Origin: Bdellovibrionales bacterium
GTDB taxonomy: Bacteria > Bdellovibrionota > Bdellovibrionia > Bdellovibrionales > UBA1609
Assembly (NCBI GenBank): GCA_019637855.1
Contig: JAHBUX010000023.1
Coordinates: 1-32,415, forward strand
DNA: 32,415 nucleotides
Direction of reading: 5' to 3'
Shown: positions 13,523 through 17,397 of the stretch, piece after piece
Layout: each line of letters begins with the position of its first letter
Position numbering within the stretch: the first letter of the stretch is position 1
Translations under genes and position numbers: made by a program
The notes under the pieces: model-generated
The model's input: only the letters and a program-made list of their open reading frames with translations
Told to the model about the DNA's origin: nothing
Databases searched by the model: none

Positions 13523-13575
13523 GCAACTGAAGTTGCGGGGTCAGGCCAGATAAGACTTGTCCCGGGGTCGGGACA
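13523..13575. promoter_or_regulatory. Two inverted repeats in the divergent MFS / Mrp region
   Basis: Two perfect inverted repeats lie in the 115-bp gap between the divergent MFS and Mrp genes. At 13523-13536 GCAACT and AGTTGC surround GA; as RNA this is a GCAAC stem with a UGAA loop. At 13558-13575 TGTCCC and GGGACA surround six bases. They may be operators or leader hairpins of the Mrp transcript. No convincing -10/-35 pair was fixed. Confidence 0.35.
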
Positions 13576-13604
13576 GGGATTACACCTACCCGCGAGGTGT
13601 CCAA

Positions 13605-14387
13605 ATGAATCCGTTTCTGCAACAAGCTCCCATTGAAGGGGTGAAAAAGATTATCGCTGTCGGCTCTGGCAAAGGCGGAGTGGGCAAATCCACCGTCGCT
13701 GTGAATCTGGCGATGGCCCTGCAAAAGCGCGGTATGAAAGTCGGCCTGCTCGACGCAGATATCTACGGGCCCAGCATCCCGCGCATGCTCGGCGCACTCA
13801 CCGCCAAGCCCGAAGTGAACGACGACAAGAAGATCATTCCCGTCACCCGTTACGGCGTGAAGACCATGAGCCTTGGCTACCTGGTGGAAGAAAGCCAAGC
13901 GGCCGTGTGGCGTGGTCCGATGCTGTTCAAAGCCATGGATCAGTTTTTCCGCGATGTCTTATGGGGTGAGTTGGACTACCTGATCATCGATCTGCCACCG
14001 GGCACGGGAGATGTGGGTTTGACCATGGCGCAGAAGGTGCCAGTCACCGGCGCTATCGTGGTGGTCACTCCGCAAAATATAGCTTTGGCCGATGCTAAAA
14101 AAGCCATCGATATGTTCGATCGCACCAACGTGCGCTTGCTCGGTATCGTGGAAAACATGTCTTACTACACCAGCCAAACGGGCGAGAAAGTGCAGCTCTT
14201 CCCGCAGGGAGAGTTGGATGCCTACCTAGACACCAAGAAGATCAAAAAGCTCGCGCAACTGCCCTTCTATCCGGATATCGGTATGAGCGCGGAGGCCGGT
14301 GTTCCGGTGCTCGAAAGCCATTCGGGCGACGAAGAGGCGGAAATGTTCCTTCGTTTAGCCGACCAAGTTCGAGACGTTTCAAACTGA
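13605..14387 (+). CDS. Mrp/ApbC-family P-loop ATPase lacking the CPxC cysteine pair
   Basis: A 260-residue P-loop ATPase of the Mrp/NBP35/ApbC family, normally an iron-sulfur cluster carrier. It has the deviant Walker A GKGGVGKS (22-29), a DADIYGPSIPRML segment (50-62), DLPPGTGD (129-136) and VTPQNIALADAKKAIDMF (154-171). It has no N-terminal DUF59 domain. The place where Mrp proteins carry CPxC, just after ENMS, reads ENMSYYTSQTGEK (183-195) with no cysteine. ATP-dependent folding is therefore supported, but cluster bridging by the usual residues is not. The start ATG 13605 has a GAGG site; an upstream in-frame ATG at 13557 adds 16 residues that are not conserved in the family. The c-di-GMP RNA follows directly downstream. 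Confidence 0.85.
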   Translation: MNPFLQQAPIEGVKKIIAVGSGKGGVGKSTVAVNLAMALQKRGMKVGLLDADIYGPSIPRMLGALTAKPEVNDDKKIIPVTRYGVKTMSLGYLVEESQAAVWRGPMLFKAMDQFFRDVLWGELDYLIIDLPPGTGDVGLTMAQKVPVTGAIVVVTPQNIALADAKKAIDMFDRTNVRLLGIVENMSYYTSQTGEKVQLFPQGELDAYLDTKKIKKLAQLPFYPDIGMSAEAGVPVLESHSGDEEAEMFLRLADQVRDVSN

Positions 14388-14639
14388 GAATTCAAGAGTT
14401 CATAGATCCTTGTTGAGATGCTCGGCGCATTTGTGTGGACCGGCACGACACGTAGCGTTATCTTTAAGGTACGGCATGCTATGAACGGCGGCCGGGCGTA
14501 GGGAGGGATCCATGCACTTGACGCCTAGGGATTGGTGTCTCGATCCGCCGCCGAAGTGACGGGGCGACCGAGAGAACCACTTAAAGGAAGTCTCTCAATG
14601 AGGAGAGGCGATCAGTAACACTAAGTTGTTACTTCCTTT

Positions 14640-14740
14640 GCTAAGGGCAAACCGTTCGAAAGGGCGGGACGCAAAACCGACGGGGCTAATGTTTTTAAGG
14701 AGGCTATGCCGGCCGGGTTGCCAGAGGAAATGGGCCTAGC
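14640..14740 (+). promoter_or_regulatory. Cyclic-di-GMP-I (GEMM-I) riboswitch aptamer
   Basis: The aptamer core matches the GEMM-I consensus: AGGGCAAACC at 14644-14653, a P2 hairpin CCGUUC-GAAA-GGGCGG with its GAAA tetraloop at 14658-14661, GGGACGCAAA at 14666-14675, a tetraloop-receptor-like pair GGCUAA / UAUGCC, and the 3' strand GCCGGGUUGCC ending at 14722. A closing helix GCUAAGG/CCUAGC (14640-14646/14735-14740) is possible. By alignment with the V. cholerae Vc2 aptamer, the ligand-contacting G20 and A47 correspond to G14646 and A14673. A guanine at position 20 predicts c-di-GMP rather than 3',3'-cGAMP, which is bound by natural variants with A at this place. Confidence 0.9.
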
Positions 14741-14764
14741 ATAAATGGGAAGTTAATGACTGGG

Positions 14765-14793
14765 CCCGCGTAAGGGACGACGCGGGTTTTTTT
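14765..14793 (+). terminator. Intrinsic terminator of the c-di-GMP RNA
   Basis: A perfect 7-bp GC-rich stem (CCCGCGT and ACGCGGG, 8-base loop) is followed directly by seven T residues (14787-14793). It is a textbook rho-independent terminator on the plus strand, 25 bases after the aptamer's closing helix. Confidence 0.95.
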
Positions 14794-14877: not shown

Positions 14878-15465
14878 ATGTGGCGTAAGTTCATCCTGTT
14901 TACCATTGCTCTCAGCTTTTTGAATGCACCTTTGCTTCAGGCCGACGATCTCGAAGACGAAGGCGGCGCTTCCGCCATTGAAGATCACGCCACCGATCCA
15001 GACTACCCGCCCCCGGCCGCACCGGAAACGAGCGGTATCGAACCCGCTCCCGTCGGCTCTGAGGAGTACAACTCCAACGCCGATATGGGCGAAGCCGTCG
15101 ATGACGCTTTGACTGCGGATGGCCAATATCCCAATGCCACGCCAGAACCCGATGTTCCGACCGAAAGCACGCCGATCCCTGGCTATGACGATGAACCCGC
15201 AGCACCCAAGAAGGCGGCAAAAAAATCTGTAGCTAAAAAAGCTCCGCCCAAGAAGAGCTCAAAGACCGCGGCCAAGAACAGTAAGAAAAAACCGGCAGCG
15301 AAGACAGCCAAGAAAACCACCGCGGCCAAAAAGACGGCAGCTAAAAAAGGCAGCAAAGCGGCCGCAACCAAGAACAAAAAAGGTCGCGACACCGCCAGTG
15401 TGAAGAAAGGTGCAAAGGCACCCGCTAAGAAGCCGGCCAAAAAGTCGGCTAAGAAATCCTCTTAA
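14878..15465 (+). CDS. Exported protein with acidic middle and histone-H1-like Lys/Ala tail
   Basis: A 195-residue protein in three parts: a signal peptide (residues 1-22, MWRKFILFTIALSFLNAPLLQA), an acidic Pro-rich low-complexity region (23 to about 108), and a strongly basic tail (about 110-195) made of irregular repeats of AAKK, AKKT, PAKK and KKS. The tail looks like eukaryotic histone H1 and bacterial H1-like proteins, which bind nucleic acid, but here it follows a secretion signal. The start ATG has GAGGAG eight bases upstream. It lies 84 bases after the terminator of the c-di-GMP RNA. It could bind peptidoglycan, LPS, polyphosphate or DNA outside the cytoplasm. The tail alone does not prove DNA binding, and no known domain is seen. 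Confidence 0.8.
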   Translation: MWRKFILFTIALSFLNAPLLQADDLEDEGGASAIEDHATDPDYPPPAAPETSGIEPAPVGSEEYNSNADMGEAVDDALTADGQYPNATPEPDVPTESTPIPGYDDEPAAPKKAAKKSVAKKAPPKKSSKTAAKNSKKKPAAKTAKKTTAAKKTAAKKGSKAAATKNKKGRDTASVKKGAKAPAKKPAKKSAKKSS

Positions 15466-15476
15466 AGCGCATACGC

Positions 15477-15773
15477 ATGATCGCTCGTGCACGCGCGTTT
15501 CTCAAGAAGCTAAGCTGGCGCTCCCTTTTGAGTGCCGGCTTTGCGATCCTCGCTCTTCTCAATCTCGCGCTACTGTCAGCTTTTAGCCATACGCTCACGC
15601 AGCTGCAGCTGACCTTTCAGCTCGACACCGCGACTCTCCGCCTGATCGCGGGCAATATCTATGTGTATTTGGGTTGTTCGTTAACGATCTCTGTCGGCTT
15701 CGCCGTGTTCAGCGCTGCCTTGGAATTCAATTCGGGATCGTCAGCTTCTCGCCCGCCATCACGCGGTAATTGA
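15477..15773 (+). CDS. Small predicted membrane protein
   Basis: A 98-residue ORF with a basic N-terminus (MIARARAFLKKLSWR), two hydrophobic segments (about 18-37 and 58-80) and a short polar tail. Third-position GC is high, like neighbouring genes, which favours real coding. Against it, the ATG has no clear ribosome site, 11 bases after the H1-like stop, and the last 47 bases overlap the 3' end of mltD on the other strand. I do not recognise the family. If real, it would be an inner-membrane protein co-transcribed with the exported H1-like gene. Confidence 0.5.
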   Translation: MIARARAFLKKLSWRSLLSAGFAILALLNLALLSAFSHTLTQLQLTFQLDTATLRLIAGNIYVYLGCSLTISVGFAVFSAALEFNSGSSASRPPSRGN

Positions 15774-17397
15774 TCTTCACGTTGTTCGCTTTGGCCAAGT
15801 CGCCCATGGTGACGCCATAGCGCTTGGACACATCCCACAGCGTTTCGCCGCGGCGGACGACGTGGCGGCGCGACTTCGCTGCATTCGACAGAGCGGCCAC
15901 ATTGCGGGAGTTCGGCGCCGAAACTTCTTTTTGTACGTTCTTCGCGCGACCGAATTGAGCCAACACGGCCGGCTTCTTCTTCACGCGACCCGCACTGTTG
16001 TCCGAACCTTCACGCACGCGCAGCTTCTGGCCTTTGCGCAAGATGCTACGGTTCGTAAGGCTGTTCATGCGCAAAAGATCCGAAACCTGAACGCCGTAAC
16101 GAGTGGCGATCACCGAAAGATTCTCGCCATTGCGTACTGTGTGAAATTCCACATCGCGCGTTTGCACGGCCGGTACCGCTTCTTTGCCTGTGCTCGCGGT
16201 CTCTTCCGTCACGTACTGAATGCCCTCACCGCCGTTATCCGGAACTTTGAGCGAACGGCCCACGCGCAACATCGAACGGTTGGACAAATCATTTAAACGA
16301 CGTAGGCGGGAAACCGTGGTGCGGTGCTTGCGAGCCACCGTCGACAATGTGTCACCGCGACGAATGCGATAGAAATAGTATTCGGCCTGCAACACTTTGG
16401 GCTGCGTGGTCACGCTCAAAGACAGAGCGGCCATGGCGTCGGTCGCGCGGCCTACCGGGATACGCACCACCGTCTCACCACCCCGACCCATAGGCACGAA
16501 GTCGGTGCGGAACTTAGGGTTGAGCAACTTCAACTCGTCGACTTCCACATTCAGGTTCGACGCCAGTTTCGAAAGACTGATCGGGCTCTGCAGAGCCACA
16601 GTGTCGTAAGACAGTGGGTCCGCGTACTCGATATCCGCAAAACCATATTTGCTGGGGTTCTTGGCGATCATGGCCGCGGCGATAAACTTGGGCACATAGT
16701 GCTTGGTCTCGGCCGGGAGAGCGCGACGCTTTTTGATCAACGCCCAGAAGTCACGCGTGTAGTGGCGAGTCACAGCGCGCTTCACGCGGCCCTCGCCCAC
16801 ATTGTAAGAGGCCATCGACAAGTGCCACGAGTTGAACATGCCGTACAGAGCTTTGAAGTATTCGGCGGCGGCGCGAGTCGACAAAACCGGGTCACGGCGT
16901 TCGTCGGTGAAGGTGTCGATCTGCAGACCGAAGCGCTTACCGGTGCTGCGGATAAACTGCCAATAACCAACCGCATTGGCTTTTGAGTGCGCACGCGGAG
17001 AAAATCCAGATTCAATCAAAGCAATGTAGACGAGATCTTCGGGCAGACCGTTTTCCCGCAGCACGTTTTTCATCATGGGAAGGTAGCGAGTCGAGCGCGC
17101 CAGGTACTGATCCATGTGCTTGCGACCGCGACCTTGGAAGTAGCGCAGCCACATGTCGACGTGTTCGTTCTGGTCGAGGGCGATCTCGCCGTAGGCGGCC
17201 TTGTAAGGCTTCTCGGCATTGACCTCAACCATTTCGGAGGAGTCTTCGTTTTCCACGATATTGGTGGGCGGTAGATCGGTCACGGCCGGCACGCCACCCT
17301 CACCCGCTGCGGCTGTCGTTGAACGTTTCTGCGTGGTCGCGCAGGCCGATAATAAAATCACGCTCGAGACCAAAAGTCCCTTCAAAGGCCAAGACAT
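15727..17397 (-). CDS. mltD: Membrane-bound lytic murein transglycosylase D-like lipoprotein with three LysM domains
   Basis: A 556-residue lipoprotein with lipobox LSAC (Cys19), so it is attached to a membrane, most likely the outer one, facing the periplasm. The transglycosylase (SLT) domain spans about 105-240, with catalytic Glu129 in ALIESGFSPRA, then NAVGYWQFIRSTGKRFGL and the MASYNVGEGRVKRAV motif. Three LysM peptidoglycan-binding domains follow at about 341-386, 415-460 and 510-555. This is the MltD arrangement with one more LysM than E. coli has. It cleaves the MurNAc-GlcNAc bond to give 1,6-anhydro ends. The ATG has AGGAG eight bases upstream. It is the last gene of the moxR-bat operon, 28 bases after slt. 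Confidence 0.93.
   Translation of the reverse strand: MSWPLKGLLVSSVILLSACATTQKRSTTAAAGEGGVPAVTDLPPTNIVENEDSSEMVEVNAEKPYKAAYGEIALDQNEHVDMWLRYFQGRGRKHMDQYLARSTRYLPMMKNVLRENGLPEDLVYIALIESGFSPRAHSKANAVGYWQFIRSTGKRFGLQIDTFTDERRDPVLSTRAAAEYFKALYGMFNSWHLSMASYNVGEGRVKRAVTRHYTRDFWALIKKRRALPAETKHYVPKFIAAAMIAKNPSKYGFADIEYADPLSYDTVALQSPISLSKLASNLNVEVDELKLLNPKFRTDFVPMGRGGETVVRIPVGRATDAMAALSLSVTTQPKVLQAEYYFYRIRRGDTLSTVARKHRTTVSRLRRLNDLSNRSMLRVGRSLKVPDNGGEGIQYVTEETASTGKEAVPAVQTRDVEFHTVRNGENLSVIATRYGVQVSDLLRMNSLTNRSILRKGQKLRVREGSDNSAGRVKKKPAVLAQFGRAKNVQKEVSAPNSRNVAALSNAAKSRRHVVRRGETLWDVSKRYGVTMGDLAKANNVKINYRVMAGEKLTIPN

Follow-up and report, generated by a model that had tools for sequence, protein, structure and literature searches.

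Organization of the locus and of the transcript

The window (the whole stretch of DNA that was analysed, 32,415 nucleotides of contig JAHBUX010000023.1 from a Bdellovibrionales bacterium) contains a small RNA locus downstream of an mrp gene. The features at and around it are as follows, with (+) and (-) giving the strand.

13557-14387 (+): mrp, coding for a NUBPL/ApbC-type P-loop NTPase; conserved upstream neighbour (Pfam PF10609, E 1.1e-93)
14455-14464 (+): promoter-like element GCGTTATCTT, core GCGyTAnnnT, probable -10 region; the core is enriched across related loci
14502-14506 (+): Shine-Dalgarno (SD) sequence GGAGG, with a spacing of 5 nt to the mini-ORF start codon, seen in the sequence
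14512-14559 (+): conserved mini-ORF MHLTPRDWCLDPPPK-stop, 15 codons, ending LDPPPK-stop (family scan, pN/pS, genome-unique motif)
14631-14636 (+): ACUUCC, 5' strand of an outer helix, pairing with 14748-14753; covaries in relatives
14636-14725 (+): GEMM-I / c-di-GMP-I aptamer (RF01051, 74.5 bits, E 4.5e-13)
14748-14753 (+): GGAAGU, 3' strand of the outer helix, pairing with 14631-14636; covaries in relatives
14762-14789 (+): intrinsic terminator, a terminator-like hairpin with a T tail seen in the sequence
14878-15465 (+): next downstream gene, an ORF for a 195-aa lysine/alanine-rich protein; no conservation at this site
15727-17397 (-): LysM/SLT lytic transglycosylase, conserved convergent downstream neighbour (Pfam LysM and SLT)

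The GEMM-I aptamer proposed in the original prediction is real. A covariance-model search (cmscan against Rfam) matches the full RF01051 model, positions 1-87, at a score far above the gathering score of 35, and this is the only copy in the 3.37 Mb genome. Model position 11, which we take to be G20 of Vc2 and to separate c-di-GMP from cGAMP aptamers, is G in the RF01051 alignment of the window sequence, and the listed relatives also have GG at this site. A cGAMP-type GEMM is excluded by this G, and the aptamer is very probably a c-di-GMP binder. The genome encodes six GGDEF domains, so c-di-GMP can probably be made there. The locus thus has the complete aptamer and the c-di-GMP-type discriminating G of the c-di-GMP-I riboswitches in RF01051, but differs from them in that its class lacks a conserved downstream gene and in that a mini-ORF lies upstream of the aptamer.

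The transcribed unit had been placed at 14486-14793. The unit itself stands, although its start is probably slightly before 14486: 31 of 74 related loci contain the promoter-like core GCGyTAnnnT, compared with 3.2 expected from shuffled sequences, and transcription probably starts near GCGTTATCTT. A strong terminator hairpin is present as described, but is 36 nt from the end of the Rfam aptamer rather than 25 nt, and this gap is partly taken up by the 3' strand of P1. Compared with shuffled sequences, 14470-14793 has a more stable fold (z -2.4). The aptamer is not fused to an ORF, the nearest of which begins at 14878, 88 nt past the hairpin.

RNAalifold predicts the outer helix in two independent groups, formed by a strand directly 5' of the aptamer and a second strand about 23-40 nt 3' of it. 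The pairs differ among lineages, with ACUUCC/GGAAGU in the window, CUUUC/GGAAAG in genome G001, UCUUCC/GGAAGA in G002 and CCUUCC/GGAAGG in the Bdellovibrionaceae. Position and covariation make the case for the helix, since the duplex energy is only weakly significant genome by genome (mean z about -1.1 in family f1).

The surrounding gene order is conserved, and mrp is upstream of the aptamer in most relatives of the order and in Bdellovibrio bacteriovorus HD100. Across the order most loci have mrp upstream and the LysM/SLT lytic transglycosylase convergent downstream, the transglycosylase cluster being close to the aptamer in 38 genomes. In the class, 38 of the 54 GEMM-I loci have an oppositely oriented gene as the next ORF of 120 aa or more, which argues for a stand-alone RNA; together with the RF01051 match and the terminator, this bears out the earlier description of a stand-alone, terminated c-di-GMP riboswitch RNA. 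The gene after the RNA differs from species to species within the genus of the window, and 14878-15465 is not thought to be part of the RNA system. Its product, for which no Pfam match was found, is lineage-specific; its N terminus resembles a signal peptide, and its KKA repeats are like those of histone H1.

An ordinary cis-acting riboswitch governing read-through into the gene at 14878 is accordingly a very improbable reading, and we reject it on the orientation and non-conservation of the downstream neighbour. The gene is co-directional with the RNA, and a GGGCC ... GGCCC pairing at 14732-14767, recognized by eye, overlaps the terminator stem and could act as an antiterminator; however, the gene is not conserved at this position even within the genus, and the pairing is not universal. 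Terminator-overlapping pairings are also seen elsewhere, as AGGCCC/GGGCCU in G001 and G003 and as AAGCCC/GGGCUU in genus g20. The pairing may be an antiterminator in part of the family; as a general antiterminator it is excluded, being present (by eye) in only part of it.

Relationship to merRNA and distribution of the class

The merRNA of HD100 has been published at 1,073,741-1,074,185 (-) (PMC3627812). The GEMM-I match of genome G072, which we take to be HD100, lies within it, at 1,073,868-1,073,951 (-), and HD100 mrp is directly upstream at 1,074,409-1,075,194 (-), its product being 64% identical to Mrp of the window. This coincidence and the shared synteny support the proposed orthology to the attack-phase RNA of B. 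bacteriovorus, and it is highly probable that the window RNA, with the anatomy described here, is the orthologue of merRNA. Both are terminated, stand-alone RNAs with a single-copy c-di-GMP-I aptamer, and they have in common the position after mrp, the outer helix around the aptamer, an SD-led mini-ORF 5' of it and a flanking TTTGC. They differ in that the window RNA comes from another family and encodes LDPPPK-stop, whereas HD100 encodes MRTHEHHDDELK-stop. The window also lacks the candidate second ORF that Bdellovibrionaceae merRNA loci carry 3' of the aptamer.

GEMM-I aptamers are present in 54 of 99 relatives and in 137 of 369 Bdellovibrionota genomes, exactly one in each, and such RNAs are therefore not confined to Bdellovibrio. 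Karunker et al. (2013, PMC3627812) described merRNA as non-coding and as not conserved beyond the Bdellovibrio lineage. At the level of sequence, the comparison shows it to be one of a class of c-di-GMP RNAs that is widely conserved and occurs in single copy. A FliA promoter for merRNA was considered and set aside, none being marked for it in Table 2 of PMC3627812.

Single GEMM-I aptamers are also found in a different, strongly conserved RNA in other classes of the phylum (loci L182-L194, families f22-f27). These aptamers carry a TACCCCG insert, and in f22-f26 the RNA has a long closing helix formed by CCCCCUUUGAAA / UUUCAAAGGGGGG and GAAGAGG / CCUCUUC. No DPPPK mini-ORF is present in the L182-L194 RNAs, which possibly represent a second stand-alone c-di-GMP RNA architecture.

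A selected mini-ORF 5' of the aptamer

The mini-ORF at 14512-14559 lies between the promoter and the aptamer, with its stop codon 76 nt upstream of the latter; it is inside the interval of the original prediction, where it was overlooked. When the upstream regions are placed side by side an SD-led short ORF is seen in nearly every member, coding for peptides of 12-16 aa that end in DPPPK or DPPPE and a stop codon in five families, and in D-x-x-P-K and a stop codon in most Bdellovibrionaceae. Examples from relatives are MAKRPKDWRLDPPPK-stop and MRLPRYWRLDPPPE-stop, the Bdellovibrionaceae have MKNRIHDHHDEPPK-stop-like peptides, and the HD100 peptide is a related form encoded within the published merRNA.

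The pattern of substitution is that of a coding sequence. Among 28 mini-ORFs, proline occupies the last-but-one sense position in all 28 and the complete D-P-P-P is present in 24, and the stop codons TGA, TAG and TAA are all used. Non-consensus bases in the last five sense codons number 17, 4 and 60 (of 140 each) at codon positions 1, 2 and 3, in a set gathered partly by means of the motif, which does not constrain third positions. For the subset of 22 ORFs found by the aptamer the numbers are 13, 4 and 46 (of 110), and over the last eight codons of these 22 pN/pS is 0.38 (0.27/0.72), a value as low as this arising in none of 300 column permutations; shifted frames give ratios above 1. The Bdellovibrionaceae mini-ORFs have a pN/pS of 0.26 (0.18/0.69), with 2 of 300 permutations as low.

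A second, partly overlapping set consists of records fetched solely by an aptamer DNA pattern. Eleven of the 13 whose titles name Bdellovibrio relatives, including Bdellovibrio sp. qaytius (CP025734) and B. bacteriovorus kdesi (NZ_CP102930), contain the mini-ORF, and so does one untitled MAG. The motif is degenerate or absent in the two exceptions, L096 and L112 (genomes G082 and G090), and it is found in none of the remaining 20 records of this set (for example from Fictibacillus, Desulfobacterales and Undibacterium). The window genome has a single occurrence of the motif. Other DPPPK-stop or DPPPE-stop matches fetched from genomes of the class were discarded, as they lie inside unrelated sequence and lack an SD and mini-ORF context. 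A chance ORF is excluded by the codon-position bias, the permutation test, the 20 unrelated GEMM loci and the uniqueness of the motif in the genome, and we have high confidence that the mini-ORF is coding. The description of the RNA as non-coding is thus contradicted by a conserved, SD-led mini-ORF that is under purifying selection here and has a related form in HD100 merRNA. Since HD100 merRNA itself is not free of such an ORF, we no longer use 'non-coding' as a criterion for merRNA.

The aptamer and the membership of the RNA among merRNA orthologues are of kinds already known; what is new, as genome comparison shows, is a selected mini-ORF in the merRNA class of the Bdellovibrionales that is able to exist without the aptamer. 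No earlier report of such an ORF was found in the literature searched, in which few subscription papers or preprints were covered. The published sRNA screen searched its transcripts against known proteins with blastX at E 1e-4, and ORFs of only 12-15 codons would very probably escape such a search.

The mini-ORF and the aptamer behave as separable modules. Six genomes, five from the family of the window (G008, G010, G011, G015 and G028) and one from another (G051), have a mini-ORF unit complete with SD and terminator-like downstream sequence in which no aptamer was found, even with permissive Rfam filters; in the first five the unit is in the mrp neighbourhood. Conversely, the 5' mini-ORF is missing beside an aptamer in genus g20 of f1, in f5 and in a few members of f8. 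As each is kept without the other, both seem to be selected.

Several variants of this organization are seen. Locus L172 (G055) has three tandem SD-led mini-ORFs before the aptamer, ending DPPPE-stop, DPPPE-stop and FPPPI-stop. At L175 (G141, family f11, of another order) a related-looking mini-ORF, MLNVFLFTRPKELSTNPPFR-stop, lies upstream of the aptamer and might be a member of the peptide family outside the Bdellovibrionales. In L059 and L079 (G050 and G057, f5) a mini-ORF MDITPIFRPPYPPPK... starts after the aptamer behind AAGGAGG and enters the terminator, with its proline codons in the terminator loop. The Bdellovibrionaceae, including HD100 (L031), have a candidate second mini-ORF, MEG...DWFHSP-stop, 3' of the aptamer at a distance of about 35-80 nt; its ATG precedes DW by 24-48 nt, a number divisible by three in every case. 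Codons 2-3 of this ORF (GGAAGG) form an outer-helix strand, and the GGAAGG and TTTCATTCCCC blocks are kept in G091 despite loss of the frame and in G082, which has no ATG at this position. Constraint at the RNA level could explain part of this conservation, and for these reasons we retain the ORF only as a candidate.

Possible roles of the RNA

Four roles other than read-through control may be weighed, and the one that we favour, as moderately probable, is that of a c-di-GMP-responsive mini-gene RNA rather than a purely structural non-coding sponge. The RNA would be a short, self-contained merRNA-type transcript, about 310-330 nt long and equipped with a promoter and a terminator of its own, carrying the c-di-GMP-I aptamer within the covarying outer helix in its 3' half and a mini-ORF, which is under purifying selection at the protein level and presumably translated, in its 5' half. 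Ribosomes would probably pause on Asp-Pro-Pro-Pro directly before the stop codon in the PPP-bearing families; pausing cannot be a universal function, as the HD100 peptide lacks polyproline. Folding of the 3' domain by c-di-GMP may then set the stability or output of the same mini-gene transcript, not of a downstream gene. Such action of the ligand on the mini-gene transcript itself is put forward tentatively, and how the ligand would control translation is not obvious with the aptamer so far downstream of the mini-ORF stop codon. Were its abundance to match that in HD100, the RNA would also titrate or buffer c-di-GMP.

A purely non-coding reservoir, in which the RNA accumulates massively and sequesters c-di-GMP and the mini-ORF is incidental, is unlikely. 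The level of merRNA in HD100 exceeds that of tmRNA and is specific to the attack phase, a reservoir role has been proposed (PMC3627812), and g20 and f5 retain the aptamer with no 5' mini-ORF; however, the encoded peptide is under purifying selection across six families, and some lineages keep the mini-ORF without the aptamer.

Somewhat less doubtful is a leader-peptide device, in which PPP pausing beside the stop codon protects the RNA or alters its folding or termination, thereby combining translation status and c-di-GMP as inputs, with the amount of the RNA itself as output. The distance from the prolines to the stop codon is fixed in f1, f2, f3, f6 and f10, and known regulatory ORFs include the proline-containing mgtL (of the mgtA leader) and the CruR uORF with its RAPP. 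These share a Pro-rich or PP-containing upstream ORF with the window, the PP motif of CruR being a few residues before its C terminus (PMC9426467). Both precede a regulated operon, whereas the window unit ends in its own terminator, and CruR itself, at about 145 aa with a metal-binding motif, is unlike the mini-ORF (PMC9426467). A conserved PP(P) near the C terminus and an SD were found, as for a polyproline leader peptide, but no downstream gene for it to control, the neighbour being convergent at most loci; PPP is also lost in HD100 and many Bdellovibrionaceae. A small RNA acting in trans by pairing with other mRNAs, and modulated by the aptamer and mini-ORF, would fit a stand-alone, terminated and potentially abundant RNA, but no unstructured conserved seed is evident in the alignments, and we consider this quite improbable.

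Returning to the c-di-GMP-responsive mini-gene RNA, a broader proposal, to which we give slightly less than even chances, is that merRNA and its relatives are c-di-GMP-sensing mRNAs of a family of micropeptide genes that has so far gone unnoticed and is conserved throughout the Bdellovibrionales. No transcript of the best-studied bacterial predator is more striking than merRNA, and what it does has been a matter of speculation since 2013; the mini-ORF makes its function open to simple tests. If the proposal is true, the most abundant attack-phase transcript of Bdellovibrio would encode a micropeptide, or engage ribosomes, under the control of c-di-GMP.
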